From positions 1 through 33,847 of the IMG/VR virus record IMGVR_UViG_3300042306_000505: a stretch of DNA of 33,847 nt. One strand, 5' to 3'. Below, piece after piece: positions 450-33,472 of this stretch (positions are counted from its first letter, which is position 1; the number at the start of each line of letters is the position of its first letter). The DNA is from a virus. The position numbers and the translations under genes were made by a program. The notes below the pieces were generated by a model. That model was not told the origin of the DNA, made no database searches, and worked only from the letters and a program-made list of their open reading frames with translations.

Positions 450-701
450 TTATTCTCCTTTGAGCAATGTTGCTATTGCTTCTCTTTCTTGATTAACTGC
501 TTCTTCAATTTTTTTTAAGGTAATCTTGTAATTGTGTTCCGCTTCTTCAATCTTGTTCTGTAACATAATGACTTGTTGCTTTACTTGATGTAGCACTTGT
601 TCAATATCCACAGGAACCCAGTTGCGTCCATCATAACCCAAAAGGTCGCCTTTTTTGGCGTTCTTAAACTCTTTGATTTTAATACCTAATTGTTGTTCCA
701 T
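450..701 (-). CDS. Small coiled-coil protein after the tail fibres
   Basis: An 83-residue protein with a good ribosome binding site (AGAGGT) just before ATG 701. Residues about 17-31 (KKGDLLGYDGRNWVPV) resemble the 'GDLLGYDG..WVPV' segments found in phage fibre and tail-tip proteins. From about residue 33 to the end it is a predicted long helix or coiled coil rich in Glu, Gln and Lys. It lies between the plus-strand small RNA locus and the holin-like gene. I do not recognise a family; a small tail-tip or fibre-associated role is inferred from the motif and position. Confidence 0.7.
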   Translation of the reverse strand: MEQQLGIKIKEFKNAKKGDLLGYDGRNWVPVDIEQVLHQVKQQVIMLQNKIEEAEHNYKITLKKIEEAVNQEREAIATLLKGE

Positions 702-732
702 ATTTACCTCTACTTACATTATACATATGTGC

Positions 733-762
733 TTGACTTTTTACAAAACATACTGCTATAAT
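733..762 (+). promoter_or_regulatory. Sigma-A/sigma-70 promoter reading on the plus strand
   Basis: TTGACT at 733-738 and a perfect TATAAT at 757-762 are separated by 18 bases. This points against all the phage genes and predicts a start at about 769-770. Its only apparent product is the short structured RNA ending at the terminator at 816-856, since no open reading frame follows. Confidence 0.78.
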
Positions 763-768
763 GATATT

Positions 769-856
769 AGAAGAAGAACCCTACCTTTCAGTTCTTCTTA
801 CCCCCTCCTGGGTTGCCCACTATATCTTGCTCGGTATAGTGGGTTTCTTTTTTTTT
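769..856 (+). ncRNA. Candidate phage-encoded small RNA (about 85-90 nt)
   Basis: The transcript predicted from the promoter at 733-762 has three parts. First is a perfect 9-bp hairpin (771-779 with 791-799) with an 11-base pyrimidine-rich loop. Second is a linker (800-815) carrying CCCCCTCCT, the complement of a Shine-Dalgarno sequence. Third is an intrinsic terminator hairpin (816-826 with 833-843) followed by a T tract. It contains no credible reading frame and lies wholly in the 153-base gap between two minus-strand genes. C-rich unpaired seeds between hairpins are known from Firmicutes small RNAs that block ribosome binding sites, for example the RsaE and LhrC types. A regulatory role here is therefore a reasonable inference. 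GGG at 810-812 could pair with nearby C runs and partly mask the linker. I recognise no named RNA family. Confidence 0.7.
816..856 (+). terminator. Intrinsic terminator of the plus-strand small RNA
   Basis: CCCACTATA (816-824) pairs perfectly with TATAGTGGG (835-843), extended by one U-G and one C-G pair around a six-base loop. It is followed by TTTC and nine or more T on the plus strand. Read on the minus strand the hairpin has no downstream T run, so it stops plus-strand transcription only. Confidence 0.85.
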
Positions 857-1076
857 ATTCTTGTTCTTTACCCGCTTGTTCTAATGCGAGTTTTCTTGCT
901 TCTAAATCGGCAATATCTAATCTAATTTGTTTGCGTTCATTTATTAAAGCAACATAATCGTAAGGCATTGGTTCTCCCATTAACTGTGCTTCAAAACATT
1001 TGATGATTTTATAATCGCCTTTTTTTAATTCATCTAATTTGGTTAAATAATTAACCACGATTTCCACATATTTCAT
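855..1076 (-). CDS. Small helical protein after tail fibre
   Basis: A 73-residue, mostly helical protein with a charged C-terminal half (ERKQIRLDIADLEARKLALE) that is likely a coiled coil. It begins two bases after the end of the fibre gene at 1078-1992, so it belongs to the same transcript, and its stop codon lies inside the T tract of the opposing small RNA terminator. Small proteins directly after fibre genes are often fibre chaperones or XkdX-like proteins, but no diagnostic residues are visible. The function is unknown. Confidence 0.7.
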   Translation of the reverse strand: MKYVEIVVNYLTKLDELKKGDYKIIKCFEAQLMGEPMPYDYVALINERKQIRLDIADLEARKLALEQAGKEQE

Positions 1077-2004: not shown

Positions 2005-3429
2005 TTAATCAACGTCAAAGATAATATCGCCTAAGTTACTTCCAGTCGTAGTGTCGTAATAGATGTGTGGGGTATCAATCCAACTTGGTGCTACGCCACT
2101 TCCACCTGAAACAAGCATTTGTTTAACTTGTGTAGTAGAACCTGCTAATCCTGAACCAGTCGGTGCGTAGAAAGAAGGAGAAGTAGATGCACTGCCGTTT
2201 AAGGTCACAGCGGGGATTTGTCTTGGTAAGGTCACAAAACCTTTTTCACTTGATAATTCTAATGCTCTTTGAGTTTCAGTAGAAGTATAACCAATTTGTA
2301 ATCCACCACGAGTTCCATTCGCAGCGAGTGGCAATGAGTAGTTATTATAGGTAGCAGTAGTCACAGCAGTAACGTGCCCAAAACCATCAACTGTAATAGA
2401 GGCAATACCTGCCGAACCTTGTGCCCCATTAAGAGTAGAAGTATCGGTGTGTTGAATGCGTATAGCGTCTGTGGTAGGCGAAACTTCCACATCTACCCCT
2501 GCACCATCAACAATCGTTAAACTATCGGCAGTGGTGTCGGCAGTAGCAGTTCCAGTCGCACCCCAAGTGTGTCCACTATCGGTGGTAGTAACAGCAATGT
2601 TTCCAAAATCGCTTGATTGAGAAGTTAAATAAGTATTTGTATCCAACGAAGCATCGTTAACACCATTTACACGGATAAAACCTTGTGTTCCAGTAGTTAA
2701 TAAAGCAGCGAGGTCTGTTAAACCTGCGTTTGCTGGTTCATAAACGCCAGAGTGCGTGTGGTTACCATAAGCAATCTTTGTGCCAGTAGTTCCCATCAAA
2801 CCCGCTAAAATACCATCAGTTACAACTTTATCGCCAGTAGTGGCAACAGAAGTAGAACTTGATAAACGAACAATACCATCAACACCAGTTGTAGCAAGTT
2901 CATAAGTGTTTTCAACAACTGCACAAGTAACAATATATGGGTCGCCAACAGTCCCAGCACCAGTTCTATTTGTAATAACAATCCAGTCGCCAGTTTCTAA
3001 TGTGGTTGTAGTAGCGGAACCCATACTTCCTGCCGTTCCTAAACCGCCTTCATCTGTGCTTGTAAATCTTGTAATCCAATATAAACCACCACCATAACCG
3101 CTTAAAGCACCAGTAGAGTTTGCGTCTAATCCAGTAGTTTCTGTTGCTACAAAATAAGCACCGATAATACTACGACTGCCAACGTTAGTGTGGGCATAAT
3201 GCACCATATCTCTTAATAATGCGTTGCCCGATTGAGGGTCATATTGAGTTGCTGTCGTTAAACTTGTAACAAAATATAAACTATCAAAAACAGAGTTCGG
3301 TAATAAACTGACGCTAATTTTTCCATCAGTTAAAAGTCCAACAACTTGTGCCGGTATCGTCTTTGGATATAGCACGTCATAATCGGTGCCATTATTCCTT
3401 TTTAATGTAATGTTGATGTTTGAAGCCAT
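2005..3429 (-). CDS. Tail fibre protein (larger paralogue)
   Basis: A 474-residue fibre sharing the N-terminal segment MAS-[N]-INITLKRNNGTD with the fibre at 1078-1992. The central region is Thr/Gly/Ser-rich beta repeat, with a 'GNHTHSGVYEP' histidine motif typical of phage fibre shafts. The protein ends in a short segment, GDIIFDVD, resembling the GDLWYDID end of the baseplate-like protein at 3928-5010. It is probably a trimeric adsorption fibre. Ribosome binding site AGGAGA precedes the ATG. It follows the coiled-coil gene at 3433-3918 by only three bases, and the two may be assembled together. The N-terminal tag and the repeats are seen directly; trimerisation and adsorption are known for the class. 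Confidence 0.85.
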   Translation of the reverse strand: MASNINITLKRNNGTDYDVLYPKTIPAQVVGLLTDGKISVSLLPNSVFDSLYFVTSLTTATQYDPQSGNALLRDMVHYAHTNVGSRSIIGAYFVATETTGLDANSTGALSGYGGGLYWITRFTSTDEGGLGTAGSMGSATTTTLETGDWIVITNRTGAGTVGDPYIVTCAVVENTYELATTGVDGIVRLSSSTSVATTGDKVVTDGILAGLMGTTGTKIAYGNHTHSGVYEPANAGLTDLAALLTTGTQGFIRVNGVNDASLDTNTYLTSQSSDFGNIAVTTTDSGHTWGATGTATADTTADSLTIVDGAGVDVEVSPTTDAIRIQHTDTSTLNGAQGSAGIASITVDGFGHVTAVTTATYNNYSLPLAANGTRGGLQIGYTSTETQRALELSSEKGFVTLPRQIPAVTLNGSASTSPSFYAPTGSGLAGSTTQVKQMLVSGGSGVAPSWIDTPHIYYDTTTGSNLGDIIFDVD

Positions 3430-3432
3430 ATT

Positions 3433-8103: not shown

Positions 8104-8539
8104 TTGTATCTCTACCTCCGTTGGTAAACACACCTGCTCTGCGTCTTAATAATTCTACTTCTTTTTCATTTCTAACATAGTTTATACCAACATTGGCAAG
8201 AGTTGAAATAGTAGTAATTGCTGCGCCTATGTAATCGCCAGTTAATAACTGCATACTAAATGAAACCGCTTGTGATACTTGGTTCATCTTTTGTGCCATT
8301 ACATAATCGCCAGTTAGGTTAGCATATTGCGACATACCTGCCGACAACATTTGTTTACCTGCCTGCCAAGCAACAGATTTTAGAAATGCGGGAGTTTCGC
8401 CTTCATCGTCATCTGCTTTTGGAGTTCTTGTTCTTGTAGACGAACCCTTTTTGGCTTCATCGTCTTTTTCAGATGACGGTGCGGTAGTTCTCTTGCGTTT
8501 CTTTTTTTCTTTAATAGTTATTTCAATTTCTTTTGCCAT
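8096..8539 (-). CDS. Short tail protein in the tape-measure position
   Basis: A 147-residue protein. Residues 1-48 are extremely charged and low in complexity (EKKKRKR, acidic DDDEGE). Residues about 50-120 are Ala/Met/Ser/Gln-rich and mildly hydrophobic, with a repeated 'LTGDY' (LTGDYVMAQ and LTGDYIGAA). The C-terminus (NEKEVELLRRRAGVF) is helical. It lies where a tape measure gene would be in a siphophage, between the tail-tube-like gene and the hub gene, but is far shorter than the usual 500-2000 residues. It may be a miniature tape measure or hub plug, or an internal protein of a short-tailed virion. The function is unknown. Confidence 0.7.
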   Translation of the reverse strand: MAKEIEITIKEKKKRKRTTAPSSEKDDEAKKGSSTRTRTPKADDDEGETPAFLKSVAWQAGKQMLSAGMSQYANLTGDYVMAQKMNQVSQAVSFSMQLLTGDYIGAAITTISTLANVGINYVRNEKEVELLRRRAGVFTNGGRDTNE

Positions 8540-8540
8540 A

Positions 8541-9377
8541 TTATTTACCTAATCTAATAGTCAAAATAGGCAGTTCGTTTGGTGTAGAAGTTAAAGAATA
8601 ATCTAATAAAATCATAGAAAATGTAGAAACAAGAATTGGCGATGCTTCGGTTCCTCGGTATAACTTAACTTCAAACGCTGTGTTGCCAGACAAAGAACCA
8701 GATGCGATATTGTAAACATCAGTAAAGAATTGACTTGATAGGTTGTTTGTAGTAAAGGACAACATTTGATTTGCGAGTTTCTTTTTAGTCACATTTAATT
8801 CTTCTCCGCTAACACGCTGACTATCGGGAGTAACGGTATAGGTAAATGCGAAACTCATAAACTTAATTGTAGTAGCAGTATCTGTGCCTTTTCTAATTGT
8901 GATATAAGAAATATCGTTGATGTTTTTAGTTACAACAACTGTGCCACCCAAGAATAGCATTGAGCGTAGACCATCGGGTGTTCTATTGAAATTACTCATT
9001 ATCACAGAGGTCGAATACATCTGTTTATAGTAAATCATCGTAGCAGGGTTTGTTGAGTTATCTATGACGCTAAAAGTGGTCATAGATTTGTTTTTAGCAA
9101 AGGTATCAATAAGGGTTCTCGCATATTCGACCGAACCAACTTCGCTAAACACCATAATTTGAACAGGATAAACAACGCTGTTAGTAAGAACGCTACCAGT
9201 AACAACTTTTAACACAAAGGTAATAGTTTTCTTTTCGCTCTCATCTTCTGTGCCAAAAGATAACTCTTGAATTACATTGATTTTATAACCGCTTGGTATC
9301 GTTGGAGTTGTTCCCGATGAAAGAGTGGTATAAAGTGCTTTTAATTCGGTTTCAAGATATGCTTTATAATTGTTCAT
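8541..9377 (-). CDS. Tail terminator/tube-like protein
   Basis: A 278-residue, beta-rich protein with many Thr, Ser and Val residues. Residues about 60-115 (PVQIMVFSEVGSVEYARTLI) resemble tail-terminator or connector proteins that form a ring at the head-tail junction. The C-terminal 150 residues could be a tail-tube-type beta domain (ending TPNELPILTIRLGK). It overlaps the upstream gp10-like gene by 14 bases and has little ribosome binding site of its own, so it is probably translated by coupling. It could combine terminator and tube roles, which would fit a very short tail. The assignment is from position and fold impression, not from a firm motif. Confidence 0.6.
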   Translation of the reverse strand: MNNYKAYLETELKALYTTLSSGTTPTIPSGYKINVIQELSFGTEDESEKKTITFVLKVVTGSVLTNSVVYPVQIMVFSEVGSVEYARTLIDTFAKNKSMTTFSVIDNSTNPATMIYYKQMYSTSVIMSNFNRTPDGLRSMLFLGGTVVVTKNINDISYITIRKGTDTATTIKFMSFAFTYTVTPDSQRVSGEELNVTKKKLANQMLSFTTNNLSSQFFTDVYNIASGSLSGNTAFEVKLYRGTEASPILVSTFSMILLDYSLTSTPNELPILTIRLGK

Positions 9378-9714
9378 ATTCTACACTTTCCGTCACATCG
9401 CTACCAAGTATTTTAGAAACTTGGGCAACGCATCTATCTACCCACAAGTAGTTATATTGTTGTTTAGGACCATAAGAGTTTTCATTTGTATATCGTGCAT
9501 ATTCCACACCACGAGAAATTATGATTTTAGCAACAACGCCACCTTTCGCTTCGCCATAATATTCAAGCGTTATGTTAGAACGCAAATTACCAGTATCAAT
9601 AGGAGATTGAGCAACAAGAGTGCTATAAAGCAACGCAACATAATTTGGAATAAAAGTCATTGCTTCCAATTGTTCTATTGATGCTTCGCCACCTCGTAAG
9701 ATTGTATCTTTCAT
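9364..9714 (-). CDS. HK97 gp10-like tail completion protein
   Basis: A 116-residue protein with the signature segment 'SPIDTGNLRSNI' (around residues 36-47), known from HK97 gp10/minor tail proteins where it starts the central beta domain. 'GVEYARYTNENSYGPKQQ' further on is also typical of the family. It acts at the head-tail joint, helping close the connector and attach the tail. Its start overlaps the stop of the preceding connector gene in an ATGA arrangement, and it is followed by the tail protein gene with a 14-base overlap. Confidence 0.8.
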   Translation of the reverse strand: MKDTILRGGEASIEQLEAMTFIPNYVALLYSTLVAQSPIDTGNLRSNITLEYYGEAKGGVVAKIIISRGVEYARYTNENSYGPKQQYNYLWVDRCVAQVSKILGSDVTESVEYEQL

Positions 9715-18910: not shown

Positions 18911-19432
18911 TTACATTATTTTCTTATAGAATTGTGCTTGGTTGTATGTCGCAGCGTTTTCGGTCATCATTTTTAGGAAGTCGTCACGAGTAAAATTACT
19001 TAATCGGAAAACTTCTTCGGGCTTCATACCGAGTTGCTTACATATTTCAGCAACAGGTTTACCGCTATCAATAAGTTCTTGGACAATCGCTTTCATTGGG
19101 TCAAGTAAATGTGTCCCACGAGCACGGTTATGTGTAATCGTTCCATACATATCTCCCGCTTTGTCTTCGTGTTCAACAATAACCACAGGAACTAATCCTG
19201 CCAATAGCGTCTTTAATGGTTCTTGTCCAGCAACAGTCCATCGGTGGAACCCGTCAATAATCGTAAAGTCGGGTCTAACCACAATAGGCATAGTCCAACC
19301 ATTCGACATAATTGATTGAACAAGTAAATCCAAGTTTTGTCTATTGACTACGTTTGGGTTATAGTTGTTTGGTTTTAATAAATCTCTTTGAACGAATTTC
19401 ACGTTCTTTAATGGGTATAGAATATCTTTCAT
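18911..19432 (-). CDS. ParB/Srx-domain protein, IbrB-like (second pair)
   Basis: A 173-residue protein with an N-terminal ParB/sulfiredoxin fold. It has 'NYNPNVVNRQNLDLLVQSI' (about 23-41), 'VVRPDFTIIDGFHRW' with the DGFHRW nucleotide-binding-type motif at 60-65, and 'THNRARGTH' (about 100-108). The C-terminal part includes a helix-turn-helix-like 'EICKQLGMKPEEVFRLSN' (about 129-146). IbrB is known as the partner of IbrA, a PAPS-reductase-fold protein; here the matching gene is directly upstream and overlaps by four bases. IbrA/IbrB were first described as activators of eib genes in E. coli prophages, but their biochemical activity is not established. The role here could be DNA modification or transcription control; neither is shown. 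Confidence 0.8.
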   Translation of the reverse strand: MKDILYPLKNVKFVQRDLLKPNNYNPNVVNRQNLDLLVQSIMSNGWTMPIVVRPDFTIIDGFHRWTVAGQEPLKTLLAGLVPVVIVEHEDKAGDMYGTITHNRARGTHLLDPMKAIVQELIDSGKPVAEICKQLGMKPEEVFRLSNFTRDDFLKMMTENAATYNQAQFYKKIM

Positions 19433-20583
19433 TGTTGTTTCCTCGTTTCTTCCATTTTCATAAATGAGAATAATTGGTTTATTAACGCTTGATAACTTCT
19501 TTCTTTTGGGTCGCCTCCATACGCAGTATCATAAGCACCTTTGTAAATGCGATACTTGTGTGCTTCTCTTAATCCTTCAATCTGCACACCGAATTTCATT
19601 AAGAACGATTTAAGTTTTCGTTGCGTTTTCTTTTGAGTTGGTGTAGTGAAGGCACTATCATCATTGAGAAGTTTGAACGCTTCTTGCTTGTAGTATTTAC
19701 TATCGGCAACAATTTGTTCATCTCCTTCTTCTTGAATTATACCGCCAACTTTACCTTTTTGCGACTTTCTAAACATTTCGGTATCAAAGTAAAGCGTTGC
19801 TAAGTAGGCATTTGGTTCACGCTTTAATATCTTATTGAATAGGTCAGGGTAAAACTCAGTCATTTGAACAAGCGACTTAGCGGTATCCACAGAGAAGAAT
19901 TGACTAATGCGTAAGAATTTCTTTGTGATGCCGATTTGATACATAAACATATAAGCGTCAGGGAAATCTAATTTATTTTCTTTGATATATAACCAAATAT
20001 CACTGTCGAACCAGTCATAGATGGGGTAGAAATAGTTGTTGCCTTTGGCAGTTGCGATAGCATTTCGTCTGCGGAAACTTTCGCTAACTCTAATTCCCAC
20101 AAGAGCAATTCTTGAAGCACAATACTTTTTGAGAAACGATTGGTAAGTTTCTTCTCTCGGATAAAAGTATGGGTGCCCAGTTACAGCAAACTCAGGCATA
20201 GGTCTAACCCAACTATCACGCTTGGTTTCGTCCCAACAAATAAATGTTTCATCGTTTTGTAGTTGGTTAAAGCAATTAAAATGCTTACATTGAATAGCAA
20301 ACCAAGTAAACTTCACGCCAATACTCAACCATTTAACTCGCCAATCTTTCATAACCTTTTCGACAGACGGATAAACGGCTTCTTCGTCCACAAATACAAC
20401 TTCTAATAATGATTTATCAATTTCGCCTGTCTTACACATTTTATAGACAAGGTCACATAGAACAATGCTGTCCTTACCACCCGAAAGAGAAAGCACAACA
20501 CCAACATTGTTTGAAAATGAGTTTTTAATTCTCTTTTTAGCAGCGACTAATACATTGTCCTCTAATGGAAAAAACTTAATCAA
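19429..20583 (-). CDS. PAPS-reductase-fold protein, IbrA-like (second pair)
   Basis: A 384-residue protein. The adenylating P-loop SGGKDS lies at residues 34-39, the hallmark of the N-type ATP pyrophosphatases. 'VDEEAVYPS' follows at about 85-93, then 'GIRVSESFRRRNAI' (about 167-180) and 'YPIYDWFDSDIW', typical of IbrA and phage PAPS-reductase-like proteins. The extended C-terminus (about 250-384) is not found in simple CysH enzymes. It most likely activates a substrate with ATP rather than reducing PAPS, as no 'ECGIH'-type CysH tail is present. The start appears to be TTG at 20583, eight bases inside the preceding gene and about 11 bases after GGGGAAG. It overlaps the IbrB-like gene. Confidence 0.83.
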   Translation of the reverse strand: MIKFFPLEDNVLVAAKKRIKNSFSNNVGVVLSLSGGKDSIVLCDLVYKMCKTGEIDKSLLEVVFVDEEAVYPSVEKVMKDWRVKWLSIGVKFTWFAIQCKHFNCFNQLQNDETFICWDETKRDSWVRPMPEFAVTGHPYFYPREETYQSFLKKYCASRIALVGIRVSESFRRRNAIATAKGNNYFYPIYDWFDSDIWLYIKENKLDFPDAYMFMYQIGITKKFLRISQFFSVDTAKSLVQMTEFYPDLFNKILKREPNAYLATLYFDTEMFRKSQKGKVGGIIQEEGDEQIVADSKYYKQEAFKLLNDDSAFTTPTQKKTQRKLKSFLMKFGVQIEGLREAHKYRIYKGAYDTAYGGDPKERSYQALINQLFSFMKMEETRKQQ

Positions 20584-21196
20584 GGTAAATCACTTCCCCA
20601 CAACGAGGGCAAAGAACAAACTTTCTTTGTTTCTCAGTTGGAGTGACTGGTGTATCAACAGGAGTATCTTTTTCCCAAGTAGGAGTTGAAGCGGGAGTTC
20701 CTGCGACATACTTTTCATCTCTAACTTCTGCCTTCTCTACGCTTTCTTTTGCCTTTTCGGTCAACACACCATACTTGCTGTCGCTTTCTTGTGCGTCCTT
20801 TTCGGTAATCGTAATCAATTTCAAACTTTCTTCATCAAAACCAGCAATATCAAAATCGCCAAACTCAGTAACTTCTTTAATAAAACTTTCAATGTTGGCA
20901 TAATCGTCCATACCTAAATCGTAGGTTTTATTATCGGTTAGAATAAGTTTCTTCTTTTGGATTTCGCTTAAACCAGTTACAAGCAACGCATCGCCTTGGG
21001 TTCTACCCATAGTCACAAGTGCTTTATGTAATCCGTTACCAACCAAGATGTTATTTTGTTCATCAATAACCATAGGTCTTGTTTGACCAAATTGTTCAAC
21101 ACTTCTAATCAATTCTTTAATTTGACTATCGGGGTGCATTCGGACGTTCTTTGCTAACGGCTTCAAATCGGCAAGTTTCACAGTCACAATATTCAT
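20576..21196 (-). CDS. ParB/Srx-domain protein with C-terminal CPRCG (first pair)
   Basis: A 206-residue protein. Residues 1-110 form a ParB/Srx domain (HPDSQIKELIRSVEQFGQ at about 21-38, LVGNGLHKAL at 51-60), followed by 'LTDNKTYDLGMDDYANIE'. Phage ParB-domain proteins of this kind are often linked to DNA methylases or other DNA-modifying enzymes. After an acidic, Thr/Pro-rich linker it ends with CPRCGEVIYLD, half of a zinc ribbon, which suggests zinc binding as a dimer or a truncated ribbon. It overlaps the PAPS-reductase-fold gene upstream (4 bases) and the TTG of the next one (8 bases), so the set is made together. Confidence 0.8.
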   Translation of the reverse strand: MNIVTVKLADLKPLAKNVRMHPDSQIKELIRSVEQFGQTRPMVIDEQNNILVGNGLHKALVTMGRTQGDALLVTGLSEIQKKKLILTDNKTYDLGMDDYANIESFIKEVTEFGDFDIAGFDEESLKLITITEKDAQESDSKYGVLTEKAKESVEKAEVRDEKYVAGTPASTPTWEKDTPVDTPVTPTEKQRKFVLCPRCGEVIYLD

Positions 21197-21999
21197 AATT
21201 TAATTCCTTTTTCTTTTACATATTGGTCTATTATATTGACCCGACCTATGTTCTTTTTAATTGTTTCAGGGTCGCATTGTAATACTTCATCTAAAATCGC
21301 ATACACATTTCCATCTACACAATTCCTTTCAGTCCAAGCGTGAGTTCCATATACCCAACCATCTTTCCATTTATAAAAGGGTGGTAGTGGTATGTTGTTG
21401 TATTTAATATACGCCAAGACCTGTTCGTGTGTCCAATCTGCTATGATATTTAATTTTATCACACCTTCACTCTTTGTCGTATGTAAAGGTGGTTTACCAC
21501 AAACATTACCATCAATAATCCTTCTACCTGTAACAAACCCATCAATGTTGTTATCTTTACACCATTTGTTCTGGATATGCCATCTGGCAGATGTATACTT
21601 GGCATCAAACTCAGGAAACCTTGGATTTGGGAATAACCAACGAGGGTCAGCGTTAAGTTGTTCAGGAGTAACCATTCCCATACTTACAATTTCACAATTA
21701 GCAGGTTTGTTATAATCTACCCACTTCTCAAAAGCGTCATATTCGTTTTCATACTTACAAAATAACCCTTTGGTTTTAATACCTGACTTCTTTATCAGGT
21801 CATATATAACCACAGCGTCCTTTCCTCCACTCCAACCATAACCGATATTCTTGATTGAAAAGTGTAATATACTGCTCTTTAATCTAACAATAGCGTTTTG
21901 GGTTAATTTTGCTATCTCCTCCACAGTTACGAGGGTATTTATATGTTCCCACGCAACTAACCAGTCATAGTTACTGCTTTTATGTTTTTTTCCTATCAT
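21193..21999 (-). CDS. PAPS-reductase-fold protein (first pair)
   Basis: A 268-residue protein with P-loop SGGKDA at residues 57-62; Ala replaces the usual Ser, and Asp is kept. Further motifs are 'GLFCKYENEYDAFEKW', 'GFVTGRRIIDGN' (about 153-164) and 'IIADWTHEQVLAYIKYNNIPLPPFYKW' (from about 185), the last being the typical 'PL..W...DVW.YI....IP..P.Y' of sulfurtransferase/PAPS-reductase proteins. It is shorter than and only distantly related to the IbrA-like protein downstream. It is the first gene after the repeat-rich region at 22018-22276 and has a strong AAGGAGAT ribosome binding site. Expected chemistry is ATP-dependent adenylation; the substrate is unknown. Confidence 0.83.
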   Translation of the reverse strand: MIGKKHKSSNYDWLVAWEHINTLVTVEEIAKLTQNAIVRLKSSILHFSIKNIGYGWSGGKDAVVIYDLIKKSGIKTKGLFCKYENEYDAFEKWVDYNKPANCEIVSMGMVTPEQLNADPRWLFPNPRFPEFDAKYTSARWHIQNKWCKDNNIDGFVTGRRIIDGNVCGKPPLHTTKSEGVIKLNIIADWTHEQVLAYIKYNNIPLPPFYKWKDGWVYGTHAWTERNCVDGNVYAILDEVLQCDPETIKKNIGRVNIIDQYVKEKGIKL

Positions 22000-22017
22000 A
22001 TATCTCCTTATATGTTT

Positions 22018-22276
22018 TTTTAGGGCATTTTAGGGCATTTAAGCGGAGTTTAGGCACCCCCCCTATTTTACCCCTATACCCCCCCATTTTAGGGCGTTTT
22101 TAGGCAAAAATGACCCCCCACCCCCCCTATTTTTAGGGTATTTTAGGCGATTTTAGGCGATTTTAGGGCATTTAATGATAATATAGGGGGGTATCTATAA
22201 ACTCTCGGTAAATCGCATAAAATCCCTATAAAATGCTATATGCCGTATACCCCCCCTATACTGCCTATTTTTAGGG
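22018..22276. repeat. TTTTAGG repeat array with C7/G6 runs (intergenic, about 280 bases)
   Basis: Between the ABC-type lipoprotein gene and the first PAPS-reductase-fold gene there is no reading frame of note. About ten copies of the plus-strand word TTTTAGG[G/C] occur. Four run at an exact 10-base pitch (22131, 22141, 22151, 22161), and another 10-base pair is at 22018 and 22028. Runs of seven C lie at 22057-22063, 22079-22085, 22121-22127 and 22250-22256, six C at 22114-22119, and six G at 22186-22191. GTATA-C7-TATAC at 22245-22261 is a perfect palindrome around a C run. The helical-pitch spacing suggests cooperative protein binding; the C runs could form G-quadruplexes on the minus strand. 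It may be an operator array, a replication origin or a phase-variable switch. I found no clear sigma-A promoter in it. Confidence 0.75.
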
Positions 22277-22281
22277 TGTTT

Positions 22282-23211
22282 TTAGAGTAGATTATTATAC
22301 TGATTAGTTACGAGCATTTCCGCGGTAACCCAAGATGGAGTGCCGTGGTTCGCTTTCATATAGTCCAACCAAAACTGTGCGTCCTCAACCACAACTTGTC
22401 CATTAGGTTGAAAGACGTAATCGTCAATCATCTCGACAGCAATGCCGGTATACTTACTAACCATCTCTTTTGCTTCCGCTTGGTTATCTTTGGTCCAGTT
22501 GGCAGCACGAGCAATAGCGGTAGTAAATGCCTTAGCATCTGCTACATTGTTTTCCGCCCAAACCTTATTCACAAAGATTTCACAAAATTGTCTTTCGCCA
22601 AAGACATCTACGCCAGTAAATAATGTTTTTACAAGTTCATTATCTCTTGTGCGTTTAGTCCAAGGTTGGATTAAACCAATAGCGTCAACTGCACCTTGTA
22701 AGAGTGCTTCTTCTTGTTGAGCAAAAGGCAAAGTAACAAAGGTAACATCGGTTTCTAACATTCCAGCGTTTTGTAACGCCATTAACCAAGTGTAGTGAAA
22801 AGAAGATTTCACAAGGTTAATTGCGATTTTCTTTCCTGCTAAATCTTGAATAGTGTTAATTCCGCTGTTGGCAAGAACAAAGAACTCTTCTAATGGTGCT
22901 TCTTCAAAAGACGATTGAATATCCGCAACTCCGATAATCGGTAAACCTGCGGCAACAGAGTTAATGATTGCCATAGTAGACACAAGAGCACCTTGAACTT
23001 GTCCACTTGAAACCATTTGAACAGCGGTAGCACCCCCAGCAACAGTGCTTACGATTTCTACTTCAATGCCTTCTTCTTCAAAGAAACCATTTTCCATAGC
23101 AATATAAACAGGGTCATAGACCTGTAATCCAACATATTTAATCACAGTTGGATTTTGCTGTGATACGCAAGAAGCAAGTAGTAAAGCCATTACAGTTAGA
23201 GATTTTTTCAT
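22282..23211 (-). CDS. ABC transporter substrate-binding lipoprotein (SsuA/TauA/NMT1 class)
   Basis: A 309-residue exported lipoprotein. It has a short positive N-terminus, a hydrophobic stretch and a lipobox LLAS-C with the lipidated Cys at residue 15. The mature part has the type II periplasmic-binding fold of the NMT1/THI5-like group: 'VYIAMENGFFEEEGIEVEIV' (about 34-53), 'GGATAVQMVSSGQVQGAL' (about 59-76) and 'TIQDLAGKKIAI'. The group binds small organic ligands such as sulfonates, taurine, thiamine precursors or aromatic acids; the ligand cannot be deduced. It overlaps functionally with the permease gene, whose last codons contain its GGAGGT ribosome binding site. Such a gene is very unusual in a phage. 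No ATPase gene is present. Confidence 0.87.
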   Translation of the reverse strand: MKKSLTVMALLLASCVSQQNPTVIKYVGLQVYDPVYIAMENGFFEEEGIEVEIVSTVAGGATAVQMVSSGQVQGALVSTMAIINSVAAGLPIIGVADIQSSFEEAPLEEFFVLANSGINTIQDLAGKKIAINLVKSSFHYTWLMALQNAGMLETDVTFVTLPFAQQEEALLQGAVDAIGLIQPWTKRTRDNELVKTLFTGVDVFGERQFCEIFVNKVWAENNVADAKAFTTAIARAANWTKDNQAEAKEMVSKYTGIAVEMIDDYVFQPNGQVVVEDAQFWLDYMKANHGTPSWVTAEMLVTNQYNNLL

Positions 23212-23214
23212 TTG

Positions 23215-23991
23215 TTATACCTCCTCTCTTAACTTGTAAATTATATAATCAAAAGTCACATTGATAGTTAACCCTATCAAAGCAACAATGATAATATACG
23301 CATAGACATTCGGATACTTGAACGAGTTGGTTTCCCACAATATCATAAAACCAAGACCTCTACTCGCTCCAAGCATCTCACTTACGACTAACGAAATAAA
23401 CCCACCGCTAATACCAACCTTGATACCAGTAAATAAATCTCTCAACGATAGTGGGAATAGTATATGGGTCATCATATAGAACTTGTTAGCACCAACATTG
23501 ATTGCTGCTTCTATGATTTCCTTTTCCACAGAACGCAAACCTTTTAGCATATTGATATAGATTGCAGGAAACGAAGTCCAAACAATAATAAATATCCGTG
23601 CGGTATCACTAATACCCATAAGCACAATCAAGAGTGGGAAGAAAGATATTGCCGATACATTTTTTAAGGAATTAAATGGAACAAAGAATAGTTTTTCTAC
23701 AATTCTAAACTCATAAGACAATATTACCATCAATACTCCGCCAAACAATGCTATCAATAAACCCGAAACTACTAATTTAATAGTAGAAAGGATATGAATA
23801 ATCAATTCTCCGTCCACAAAAACATCATAAAGCGATGAACCTATACGCAACAAACTTGGTATTGCTGGGTTTTGTAGTGTAAAACTTATCACACCCCACG
23901 CTGTAAACAAAATAATAACACCAAGTAAATAAGGCATTAACTTTTGTGTATAGTAATGTAGGTTATGTAGTATTTTATAATAACTCTTCAT
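23215..23991 (-). CDS. ABC transporter permease (SsuC/TauC class)
   Basis: A 258-residue membrane protein with about six hydrophobic helices, the first at about 20-38. The cytoplasmic EAA loop at 161-180 (EAAINVGANKFYMMTHILFP) is the conserved contact to the ATPase subunit in BPD-type permeases; it is intact, so the protein should still be able to bind an ATPase. With the lipoprotein downstream it makes two of the three parts of an importer. The start ATG at 23991 has no visible Shine-Dalgarno, unlike nearly every other gene here, and lies below the repeats at 24001-24048. These may indicate low or regulated expression. An origin from a bacterial chromosome is inferred. Confidence 0.87.
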   Translation of the reverse strand: MKSYYKILHNLHYYTQKLMPYLLGVIILFTAWGVISFTLQNPAIPSLLRIGSSLYDVFVDGELIIHILSTIKLVVSGLLIALFGGVLMVILSYEFRIVEKLFFVPFNSLKNVSAISFFPLLIVLMGISDTARIFIIVWTSFPAIYINMLKGLRSVEKEIIEAAINVGANKFYMMTHILFPLSLRDLFTGIKVGISGGFISLVVSEMLGASRGLGFMILWETNSFKYPNVYAYIIIVALIGLTINVTFDYIIYKLREEV

Positions 23992-27779: not shown

Positions 27780-27826
27780 AAGTAACTTCCCCACTTGTCT
27801 ACTTTGTCTACTTTCGGTTTATTCAT
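27776..27826 (-). CDS. 16-residue leader peptide (candidate)
   Basis: ATG 27826 is preceded by the strong ribosome binding site AGGAGGG (27840-27834) and opens a 16-codon frame, MNKPKVDKVDKWGSYL. Its TGA overlaps the ATG of the next gene (ATGA at 27779). The near-consensus promoter at 27847-27875 lies immediately upstream, so the mRNA would begin almost at this ribosome binding site. It could be a leader that couples or regulates translation of the following gene. No similar peptide is known to me. Confidence 0.5.
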   Translation of the reverse strand: MNKPKVDKVDKWGSYL

Positions 27827-27846
27827 ATATAAACCCTCCTGTCTAA

Positions 27847-27875
27847 ATTATATACGAAATCTAACAAATAGTCAA
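27847..27875 (-). promoter_or_regulatory. Strong sigma-A promoter of the second early gene set
   Basis: TTGACT (27875-27870) and TATAAT (27852-27847) with exactly 17 bases between them on the minus strand. This is the best promoter in the window. The start would be at about 27840, at the ribosome binding site of the leader peptide. A perfect 11-base tandem repeat at 27879-27900 lies just upstream of the -35 box. Confidence 0.83.
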
Positions 27876-28711: not shown

Positions 28712-30972
28712 ACTTTGAATTTGTCGAAAGTATATTGTGTTGTATCTTTGTTTAATCGGATATTGATATACACAATACCTTGTGACCTCCTTTTCTTTTC
28801 AAATCTTTTACCCATTTCTTTTCCAAATCTTGTAAGTGGCATCAAGTATTCGTTACCGCGTCTTGCCCACTCGCTATAAACTTGGTATACATCGCTAACA
28901 TTAGTTTCCCAACCAGGCACAACGCTACAACATTCATCTACAAATGTATTGATGATGTCCATTTCGTTCTTATAGTCCTTCGTTGCTTCTTCAACAGTTG
29001 ATGGACTTTCTAATCCTTCTTTAAGCCATTTGATAGTGCCTTGAACCGCCCAATTAAATATCTCGGGTAATTCTTTTAATAGTTTGGCAGTCAAATCTCT
29101 ATCTTGTTTGTCCTTTGGCAATTTCATTTCAAATGGTATTAAGCGTATGCGTCGCCATATACCTCCGTCAGTGCCACGAATAACTGGACGATAGTTTGTT
29201 GCTAACCATAACTTAAACTCTGGTCGGAACTCAAACTCTTTTCCATAAAGGAACCGAGCAGTAATCTTGTCGCCACCTGTAAGTTGTTTCACAAGTCCTT
29301 CGTTGAACTTTGAACCTTCGTTAGGTTCGCCAGTGGTAACTAAACGAGCACCTTTTAATCTTGCCAAATCGCTTGACGCAGCACCTGGCGTTTTGTTGTA
29401 TAAGATAGTATCTACTTGGGCATTAACCGCATAGTCGCCTAACATAGTTGCTATAACATCAAGGAACACGGATTTACCATTTGCCCCATCGCCATAGCAA
29501 ATGAACATACATTGTTCTTTGATAGAACCAGTAATTGTATATCCTACTGCTTTTTGAATAAAGTTAATTAACTCTTGGTCGCCACCGAATATCTCGTTTA
29601 GAAACTTCAACCATAGTTTAGGTTCCTTGTCCGACACATTGATAGGTATAACTTTGCTCATCATAAAATCCTTATGATGCTCTAACATCTTGCCAGTTGA
29701 TAAATCTACAACTCCTGAAAGAGTGTTGATAAACTTTTTGCTTTTATCAAAGTCAGTATTGTTAACTGGTAACCCTGGTAAATGTATGCTTTCTTTTAGC
29801 ATTGCTTCTTTACCTCGTGATGAGTATGCGTGTTGAACATTTCGCATTTTCATCTTTTGGATTTCTTTATCGTCTTCCGCAAGAGCATCTTTACGCATTT
29901 CATCAATTACAATTTCACACATATTCTTTATAGTGAGTTCGGTATCATTCGCCCAATGAGTTCCCTTCCACACCATATAGTTTCTATTATCAAGGTTATA
30001 CTTGATTTCATCTCCGTATCGGTCTACGAACCTATGGGCGTTGCCAGTATCATTAAGTTCATAGTCCTTGTTCTTGGAAAATACAACTTCGCCTGTCTTG
30101 GCATTAACCATCACTTCTTTTTCTTTCATTTGAGGGTCATACACATTCACAGTTTTATTACAAGCGTTTTCTATCGTGATAGCACCATAGGTTGTATTGT
30201 TTTGTTTTCTATCCCACTTGGGACGCATCAAACCGCTTAATCTCATTATGCGGTCCATTTGTTGTTTATCTTTGCGTGTCCAAAATGCTAACAAGAAACA
30301 GAATGCCATATCTGCCTCGCTTTGACTTTCATACACGCCTTCCCATTGTCCTGCGAAAAGTAGAGAGAACAAACCTCCGTTCTTACTCATACTTGCTTTT
30401 TTGATGATTTCGTTATCATCTAAATTGCTTGAAGTTGGTGGAATATCAAACTTGTAAATCTCGTCTTCTTGCTTGGCGGTCATAAGGTATTTATCAAATA
30501 GTTTTTTGACTTCGTTAGTCCTATCATAGATTTCGGATTTAGTTAATGAGTTACCAGTCATCACAAAGAAACGCTGACTATCATACATCTCAATTCCGTT
30601 TTTTCTACGAGGTCCATCGGGTAATTTGCCTTTACATATAATGTGTATACCATTACCACTTTGCGAAATCTCGGTATATGAGTTTAGCGTAGACATAAAC
30701 TCTTCTTTGAGTTCTTCCGTGCAGTCATCTAAATCTATACCGAAGTAACCATTAGCAAACATAAACCCTATACCTGATAGATTATATGTTTTTACTGCCT
30801 CGACTGCCTTATCAAAGGTAGTCCAAGTTAATGGGTTATTGCTCATAGCATTACTTCCATTGATAGCACTAATAGGTATCTTGGTCGCTTTGCCTTTTTC
30901 GTTGGTAATTTTTTTCCAACAAACCCATTGTTTTAATTCTTTTAATTCTTGTGGTATGTTTTCGTAAGACAT
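28708..30972 (-). CDS. Primase-helicase (archaeo-eukaryotic primase-type + D5/SF3 helicase)
   Basis: A 754-residue replication protein. The N-terminal primase domain shows GIDLDD at 78-83, the metal site, and SGNGIH at 105-110, both typical of phage bifunctional prim-pol proteins. The C-terminal superfamily 3 helicase shows Walker A GDGANGKS at 494-501, then motif B 'LVTTGEPNEGSKFNEG', sensor 'WLATNYRP' and 'GIWRRIRLIPF', and a final winged-helix-like region. No phage DNA polymerase is seen, so this protein probably starts replication and host polymerase extends. It has a strong AGGAGGG ribosome binding site in a leader with two hairpins. Confidence 0.9.
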   Translation of the reverse strand: MSYENIPQELKELKQWVCWKKITNEKGKATKIPISAINGSNAMSNNPLTWTTFDKAVEAVKTYNLSGIGFMFANGYFGIDLDDCTEELKEEFMSTLNSYTEISQSGNGIHIICKGKLPDGPRRKNGIEMYDSQRFFVMTGNSLTKSEIYDRTNEVKKLFDKYLMTAKQEDEIYKFDIPPTSSNLDDNEIIKKASMSKNGGLFSLLFAGQWEGVYESQSEADMAFCFLLAFWTRKDKQQMDRIMRLSGLMRPKWDRKQNNTTYGAITIENACNKTVNVYDPQMKEKEVMVNAKTGEVVFSKNKDYELNDTGNAHRFVDRYGDEIKYNLDNRNYMVWKGTHWANDTELTIKNMCEIVIDEMRKDALAEDDKEIQKMKMRNVQHAYSSRGKEAMLKESIHLPGLPVNNTDFDKSKKFINTLSGVVDLSTGKMLEHHKDFMMSKVIPINVSDKEPKLWLKFLNEIFGGDQELINFIQKAVGYTITGSIKEQCMFICYGDGANGKSVFLDVIATMLGDYAVNAQVDTILYNKTPGAASSDLARLKGARLVTTGEPNEGSKFNEGLVKQLTGGDKITARFLYGKEFEFRPEFKLWLATNYRPVIRGTDGGIWRRIRLIPFEMKLPKDKQDRDLTAKLLKELPEIFNWAVQGTIKWLKEGLESPSTVEEATKDYKNEMDIINTFVDECCSVVPGWETNVSDVYQVYSEWARRGNEYLMPLTRFGKEMGKRFEKKRRSQGIVYINIRLNKDTTQYTFDKFKV

Positions 30973-30975
30973 ATT

Positions 30976-31023
30976 CCCTCCTTAATGGAGAAAGGGATTA
31001 CATTGTTTAGATATAACCCCTTT
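30976..31023 (-). promoter_or_regulatory. Hairpins in the primase leader
   Basis: In the 63-base gap before the primase gene, 30991-31000 pairs with 31014-31023 (ten pairs, one G-U), and CTCC next to it (30990-30987 on the minus strand) can pair with the GGAG of the ribosome binding site (30981-30978). The second could partly hide the AGGAGGG site. No T tract follows, so this is not a terminator. Translational control is an inference. Confidence 0.42.
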
Positions 31024-31035
31024 CAGTTTACGATA

Positions 31036-31491
31036 TTAGAATGGTAAATCTTCGTCTTTTGCGATTTTAGGTTTAGCAACTTCTTGCGGTTTCGCTTTTG
31101 AACTTCGGTAGTAAACGATTTTATTTACTTCTTCGTTTCTATACTCATCGTGTTCTACTGCTACTTTAACCACAAGCATACTGCCAGTCAAGAACTTTAA
31201 TAACTCCGCAATCGTATCAAATGTTTTACCATTTTCAATTTTTTGAGTTGCGAGTAATAAGTTTAACCTACGTCTATTGAAGAATTGTGGGTTATCTTTT
31301 TCTTTCCAAATGTCTTCAAAGATAATGCGGTTCTTACCTTCTTGTTCAACATCGGTTCTAATTCTAAATTGAATACCAATTTTTTCTTTGCCACTTAAAA
31401 GTTTTTTGATTTCCGCTTTTTCTAAAATGACTTCATATTCGCCTTCTTTAATTAACCCACTTGTATTTGTAAAAGTATATTGTTCTGCCAT
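31036..31491 (-). CDS. DUF669-type single-stranded DNA-binding-like protein
   Basis: A 151-residue protein with the DUF669 pattern: 'LIKEGEYEVILEKAEIKKLL', then 'IGIQFRIRTDVEQ', 'IIFEDIWKEK' and 'FFNRRRLNLLLATQKIENGKTF', ending in DEDLPF (146-151). An acidic, hydrophobic tip of this kind is the protein-interaction tail of SSB proteins. It probably coats single-stranded DNA in phage replication and recombination. I chose ATG 31491 (AAGGAAAA upstream); the longer in-frame start overlaps the preceding gene. The SSB role is inferred from the C-terminal tip and from its neighbours. Confidence 0.78.
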   Translation of the reverse strand: MAEQYTFTNTSGLIKEGEYEVILEKAEIKKLLSGKEKIGIQFRIRTDVEQEGKNRIIFEDIWKEKDNPQFFNRRRLNLLLATQKIENGKTFDTIAELLKFLTGSMLVVKVAVEHDEYRNEEVNKIVYYRSSKAKPQEVAKPKIAKDEDLPF

Positions 31492-32999: not shown

Positions 33000-33444
33000 C
33001 GTGTTTGTCCTCCTTGCTCGTTTTAACCTTTACTTCGTCTTCTTCGTCTTCCTTATCATCATCTTGTTGTGCTTGTTTGAATAATTCTCCTTTCTTTGAA
33101 TTAAGCACTTCAAGTAATTCATCGGGGTGCTTAATGTTTTGTTTTTTCACAACATCAAGAACTCCGTGATAAGCAGTAATCATAGCATCTACCATCTTTA
33201 CGAGAACAAATGCTTCCATTGGATTTTTAGGATTGTGAATGCGTAAATCAAGCATTTCAATCATTGAAACAAGCACATTGATAATGGACGCTTTGCCAAA
33301 GTTACCCATACCTTTAATGCTCATAGCACTCGTATCATCATCTTGGTCTTTTAGAGTAATCAATATAACACCTTTTAATAATTGTTCAATGTCGATATTT
33401 CGGTCTTGTAGTAATTCCTTGATAGTCACTTCATCTTTTTTCAT
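32992..33444 (-). CDS. Early protein of unknown function
   Basis: A 150-residue protein. I start it at ATG 33444; a TTG start 12 codons earlier is also open, and the AGGAGGG ribosome binding site lies about 14 bases before the ATG, a long spacing. It is helical in the middle (SIINVLVSMIEMLDLRIHNP, FVLVKMVDAMITAYHGVLDV) and ends in a very acidic segment (DDDKEDEEDEVKV). The acidic tail might contact DNA-binding proteins. Its gene sits between the regulator and the Sak4-like gene, a common place for accessory recombination proteins. Confidence 0.7.
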   Translation of the reverse strand: MKKDEVTIKELLQDRNIDIEQLLKGVILITLKDQDDDTSAMSIKGMGNFGKASIINVLVSMIEMLDLRIHNPKNPMEAFVLVKMVDAMITAYHGVLDVVKKQNIKHPDELLEVLNSKKGELFKQAQQDDDKEDEEDEVKVKTSKEDKHDA

Positions 33445-33472
33445 AAGTTTTTTATTACCCTCCTTGGTAAAC

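Follow-up and report, generated by a model that had tools for sequence, protein, structure and literature searches.

A plus-strand unit at positions 733–856 of a phage genome known from metagenomes alone is probably the gene for a small regulatory RNA. The unit consists of a promoter, a hairpin, a C-rich linker, and an intrinsic terminator. It lies in IMG/VR virus record IMGVR_UViG_3300042306_000505, the whole 33,847-nt stretch of which was analyzed and is referred to here as the window. Judged from sequence, the predicted ~85-nt RNA may act in trans, base pairing with mRNAs and blocking their Shine-Dalgarno (SD) sequences, and its likeliest phage targets would be genes of the replication/early module, the primase first. 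We put the probability of this reading at roughly one-half.

Anatomy of the plus-strand unit

The unit occupies a 153-nt gap between an 83-aa gene and a 73-aa gene, both of which belong to the minus-strand late operon. All substantial genes of the window are carried on the minus strand, so the unit opposes them, as the first-pass annotation of this DNA had reported. The features of the locus are as follows.

450–701, minus strand: 83-aa gene, downstream in the late operon, function unassigned
655–957, plus strand: overlapping 100-aa reading frame with a TTG start, translation very unlikely
733–762, plus strand: sigma70-type extended −10 promoter, TTGACT-N18-TGCTATAAT, 11/12 match plus TG
761–925, plus strand: overlapping 54-aa reading frame, ATG within the −10 box and no SD, judged untranslated
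771–799, plus strand: hairpin 1, 9-bp stem (771–779/791–799) with an 11-nt loop
800–814, plus strand: C-rich linker ACCCCCUCCUGGGUU, holding the anti-SD sequence CCCUCCU (803–809)
815–856, plus strand: intrinsic terminator, 12-pair stem (815–826/833–844) including G-U, loop UUGCUC
855–1076, minus strand: 73-aa gene, upstream in the late operon, phrog_17180, function unassigned

The promoter hexamers TTGACT (733–738) and TATAAT (757–762, preceded by TG) are separated by an 18-nt spacer. This promoter is the best match within the first 20 kb of the window, and its score is shared by just two further sites across the whole window. Transcription is expected to start near position 769, ~7 bases past the −10 box, giving an RNA of ~85 nt in agreement with the 85–90 nt proposed earlier. 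The promoter resembles the early promoter at 27875–27847 (TTGACT/TATAAT), suggesting that the RNA is probably made early by the host polymerase.

The predicted fold has an MFE of −31.2 kcal/mol compared with −17.3 ± 2.7 kcal/mol in shuffled sequences (z = −5.1). The loop of hairpin 1 (780–790, CCUACCUUUCA) is pyrimidine-rich and has an unpaired probability of 0.97–1.0. Within the linker, the computed pairing leaves UCCU (806–809) fully unpaired (1.0) and positions 804–805 about half unpaired, while base 803 is mostly paired within a weak ACCC/GGGU hairpin. This possible third hairpin, ACCC-CCUCCU-GGGU, is absent from the earlier description, which otherwise gave the promoter, the 9-bp hairpin, and the C-rich linker as we find them. 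The terminator stem is followed by TTC and then by T9 at 848–856, where the stop codon of the 73-aa gene overlaps the 3′ end of the T tract. The earlier description of a terminator with a long T tract thus stands; its stem, given there as 11 bp, is counted here as 12 pairs with G-U included.

The combination of elements was compared with chance by searching both strands for a strong promoter 20–150 nt ahead of a strong terminator in the window and in 300 dinucleotide shuffles. Such a unit occurs once in the window and in 0/300 shuffled genomes. The complete unit exceeds chance expectation.

The claim that the gap holds no reading frame was inexact, as the plus-strand frames at 761–925 and 655–957 cross the unit. 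The unit could accordingly be read as the messenger for a small membrane-like protein encoded at 761–925 and not as an RNA gene. In the sister lineage described below this frame stays open, having few changes and a 3-nt gap that preserves the phase, but we regard the messenger interpretation as scarcely credible. The ATG begins inside the −10 box, sharing its final AT and adding the G that follows (TATAATG), and lies upstream of the expected transcription start without a ribosome site, so the predicted transcript misses it and the frame is judged not to be translated. Moreover, the terminator and its T tract fall within the frame, and the 3′ part of the frame is dictated by the opposite 73-aa gene. 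The 74-nt core of the unit (771–844) shows one synonymous change relative to the sister where ~5 would be expected, an estimate based on the neighboring 83-aa gene, whose 252 nt contain 24 changes and whose product has 5 amino acid changes. No Pfam match was found for the frame. With its own promoter, its own intrinsic terminator, and no frame judged to be translated, the unit has the makeup of an independent small RNA gene.

Retention in a sister lineage and searches for homologs

Scans of IMG/VR with the tail gene, the capsid, the terminase, a terminase alignment, the neighboring gene, and three RNA patterns recovered a single sister lineage. It is represented by records IMGVR 3300042385_002314 and 3300042519_000942, which are 99.97% identical to each other and about 85–91% identical to the window. 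RNA-pattern matches in other contigs were rejected because the rest of the RNA was missing, four chromosome matches to GTTCTTCTTACCCCCTCC were set aside as unrelated repeats or chance, and blastn against phages and plasmids returned chance pieces only.

The sister lineage retains the complete unit (promoter, stems, loops, linker, and terminator) at the same place. Conservation of the promoter and stems in related phages was one of the conditions that the first-pass annotation had set for its proposal, and in this one lineage both are conserved. Both promoter hexamers and the TGC are identical to those of the window, as are hairpin 1 and the terminator stem, and the 74-nt core contains a single change, U/C at position 814, the last base of the linker. 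The flanks have diverged, with 3/8 bases changed at 763–770 and 4/10 in the T tract, which is shorter in the sister but kept and is predicted to stay functional. The conserved block therefore ends where the RNA stems end.

Conservation of the core is unremarkable when taken alone, since 4.9% of all 74-nt stretches differ by no more than one base between the window and the sister. The equal similarity of these other stretches is due to recombination or constraint. High conservation was therefore rejected as a stand-alone proof of function. The similarity of other stretches left by recombination, together with the availability of two lineages only, is what could be said for a chance promoter beside a remnant terminator with no functional RNA. 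We consider this very improbable, given that no shuffled genome reproduced the unit and that promoter, stems, and terminator were kept while flanking bases changed.

Rfam searches at gathering and at permissive thresholds gave no credible match to the small RNA, consistent with the earlier remark that it resembles no known phage RNA. The non-random unit, its retention in a second lineage, and the lack of an Rfam match give good support at the sequence level to the proposal of a stand-alone plus-strand RNA gene. A packaging or virion role had also been allowed for earlier. In such a role the RNA would be a structural part of the virion or of its packaging motor, comparable to phi29 pRNA. Like pRNA, the RNA is small and phage-encoded, and its locus lies among late genes, but nothing more favors such a role and we hold it to be extremely unlikely. 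The RNA differs from pRNA in size and fold, being simpler and half as long; neither the packaging-RNA models nor any other Rfam family is matched; and the phage has an ordinary terminase of the large-subunit type. The exposed C-rich, anti-SD sequence speaks rather for a regulatory RNA that works by base pairing.

Further relatives have terminases 81% to 47% identical to that of the window. As judged from gene content, the contigs of two of them (G003 and G004) end before the locus. No RNA-like match was found in relatives G006 and G009 or in cultured phages with related portals, which infect Anaerostipes, Solobacterium, and Streptococcus. The closest primases, at 44%, are those of Listeria and lactobacilli phages. 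No integrase was present among the window genes scanned, so the phage is probably, although not certainly, virulent.

Features away from the locus were also noted. The window carries phage-borne ABC transporter genes at 22282–23991 (minus strand), an unusual cargo that encodes a substrate-binding lipoprotein of the NMT1/THI5-like kind (Pfam NMT1, 1.4e-32) and a BPD_transp_1 permease of the inner membrane; no ATPase gene was seen with them. They are kept in G003 and G004 at 68% and 59% identity and perhaps serve uptake of a sulfonate or thiamine precursor. Adjacent to them is a 282-nt non-coding gap (22000–22281) with ATTTTAGGGC/ATTTTAGGCG repeats spaced 10 bp and several runs of C7 matched by runs of G6. 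This gap is iteron-like and perhaps a replication origin. The sister contig breaks exactly there, and the corresponding gap of G004 is similar but diverged. At 19429–21999 (minus strand), ParB-like genes lie both between and next to a pair of PAPS-reductase-like genes. Finally, a 44-bp near-repeat (84%) at 1952–1995 and 3389–3432 marks the starts of two neighboring tail genes with similar N termini (MAS.[DI]ITLKRNNG), suggesting a tail-fiber gene duplication.

Anti-Shine-Dalgarno complementarity and candidate targets

CCUCCU is the anti-SD sequence of 16S rRNA. On the plus strand of the window CCCTCC occurs four times, once in the small RNA and three times as the complement of an SD. Outside the locus, all three copies of AGGAGGG, the complement of linker CCCUCCU, are SDs. 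The same holds for 4/4 copies in the sister, namely the three of the window plus that of a MoxR/CobS-like ATPase gene (9527), and all of these SDs, in window and sister alike, belong to the replication/early module. The ATPase gene itself, at 8246–9514 (minus strand) of sister contig L039, encodes a MoxR/CobS-like AAA ATPase (phrog_249, "porphyrin biosynthesis") and adjoins a phrog_1909 gene; the window lacks this 4-kb segment because its contig ends. The candidate targets in the window are the following.

33458–33464, minus strand: SD AGGAGGG of the gene starting at 33444, which adjoins a Sak4-like gene
30973–31035, minus strand: primase mRNA leader with two complementary sites, primase gene starting at 30972
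27834–27840, minus strand: SD AGGAGGG of the gene starting at 27826, directly after the TTGACT/TATAAT promoter at 27875–27847

The shorter SD motif GGAGG is found at 8/22 early genes versus 2/23 late genes (Fisher p = 0.035). Judged by pairing energy, the linker showed no significant distinction between early and late genes (p = 0.27), and the idea that it prefers early genes on energetic grounds was rejected.

The 63-nt primase leader contains a 14-bp hairpin followed by the SD AGGAGGG (30976–30982), which is set in a CUCC-AUUAA-GGAG element and is complementary to the linker. A second leader site, CUGAAAGG (31019–31026), is complementary to CCUUUCAG, that is, loop 1 with its closing base. 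The primase is the best two-site target, with a summed energy of −26.4 kcal/mol compared with −21.7 kcal/mol for the runner-up; it was chosen as a target after the results had been inspected. The best joint score was also reached by a shuffled loop 1 in 55/500 cases and by a shuffled linker in 13/500, which makes the primase pairing a lead and no demonstration. The contribution of loop 1 is weak. In addition, the two sites come in the same order in both RNAs, making a contiguous duplex with the leader topologically awkward. The block at 30962–31059 is identical between window and sister. The leader hairpin directly ahead of the SD (z about −3.7, likewise identical in the sister) is a cis-regulatory element in its own right; it is missing from G004, whose contig stops before the locus and contains no copy of the RNA.

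A trans-acting mechanism can be proposed on this basis. Host RNA polymerase would transcribe the free ~85-nt RNA from its own strong promoter, and its own terminator would end the transcript. The linker CCCUCCU, aided by the pyrimidine-rich loop 1, would cover purine-rich AGGAGGG SDs and so block translation initiation, most likely in genes of the replication/early module and first in the primase with its two leader sites. Strong SDs on host mRNAs may be targeted as well. Later, opposing late transcription would collide with synthesis of the RNA and yield its perfect complement, soaking it up and perhaps serving as an off-switch.

An RNA acting only on host RNAs or proteins, by blocking SDs or by sponging a small RNA or an RNA chaperone, would make the phage SD matches incidental. 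In favor of such a role, many host mRNAs would offer a match to the CCUCCU core, transcription would start from a host-like sigma70-type promoter, and phage small RNAs with host targets have been published (PreS on dnaN, VpdS; PMC12197685). Restriction to the host is nevertheless quite unlikely in our estimation, as the AGGAGGG sites of the phage itself are all SDs of one module.

Action in cis is the main rival to trans-acting SD blocking. Given where the unit lies and which way it faces, any late message that reads through the gap would carry, in the leader of the 83-aa gene, a stretch perfectly complementary to the small RNA. The RNA could then act on the late mRNA before the downstream (possibly lysis-related) genes, controlling its read-through or its stability by RNase III cleavage, attenuation, or polymerase collision, much as lambda OOP and plasmid ctRNAs do. 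Antisense RNAs directed at late or lysis genes of phages have been published (PAK_P4as15, OOP; PMC12197685), and the unit bears a very weak likeness to the ctRNA_pT181 model, its 19.5 bits (E = 2) falling below the cutoff of 56. Control in cis is possible, if on the unlikely side. A cis target changes automatically with the RNA, so the identical loops and linker seen in the sister are not required by it. Furthermore, the RNA stops short of the SD and start (701) of the 83-aa gene and covers no start codon, and SD matches elsewhere are left unexplained.

Comparison with known small RNAs

Small RNAs that use C-rich stretches to block SDs have been described in low-GC bacteria. The RNA described here has the exposed C-rich motif complementary to SDs by which such RNAs are recognized. 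LhrC of Listeria monocytogenes, ~100 nt long, consists of a stem-loop, a single-stranded C/U-rich stretch, and a terminator hairpin, and its unpaired C-rich motifs pair with SDs and block translation (PMC4132741). The phage RNA similarly combines a C-rich loop, a single-stranded C-rich stretch, and a terminator. LhrC, however, carries UCCC in three redundant copies, including one in its terminator loop, whereas the phage-borne RNA, with its terminator loop UUGCUC, exists in one copy and contains no UCCC anywhere in 769–856, loop 1 included. In a study of a lytic Listeria phage, candidate RNAs likewise lacked UCCC motifs, and avoidance of such motifs by phages was suggested (PMC12282133).

IsrR and related staphylococcal RNAs, including RsaE and SprD, also pair with SDs through unpaired C-rich regions. 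Their genome is AT-rich and has few G-rich stretches other than SDs (PMC9410917), a scarcity shared by the phage window. IsrR differs in having more stems, in being iron-regulated, and in being chromosomal; SprD sits on a pathogenicity island and targets a host gene (PMC2880579). By analogy, the phage RNA would work most like LhrC and IsrR. Rfam searches gave no sequence homology to LhrC or to any other described C-rich SD-blocking RNA; for this reason, and because the UCCC motif is lacking, we do not file it as a member of the LhrC/IsrR type.

Among phage RNAs, lambda PreS and OOP, P22 sar, VP882 VpdS, and PAK_P4as15 are likewise short and independent and base pair with mRNAs of phage or host; two of them, OOP and PAK_P4as15, are in addition transcribed against phage genes (PMC12197685). 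In contrast to the RNA described here, several of them are Hfq-dependent and come from temperate phages of Gram-negative hosts (PMC12197685). None of the RNAs described in that review of phage regulatory RNAs has a C-rich anti-SD architecture (PMC12197685).

The most far-reaching interpretation is that a probably virulent phage times its genome replication by means of an anti-SD RNA, with an AGGAGGG regulon headed by the primase and with opposing late transcription neutralizing the RNA. In this complete form the proposal is doubtful. If it is true, ~85 nt would suffice for a virus to control a whole gene module through an anti-SD sequence.
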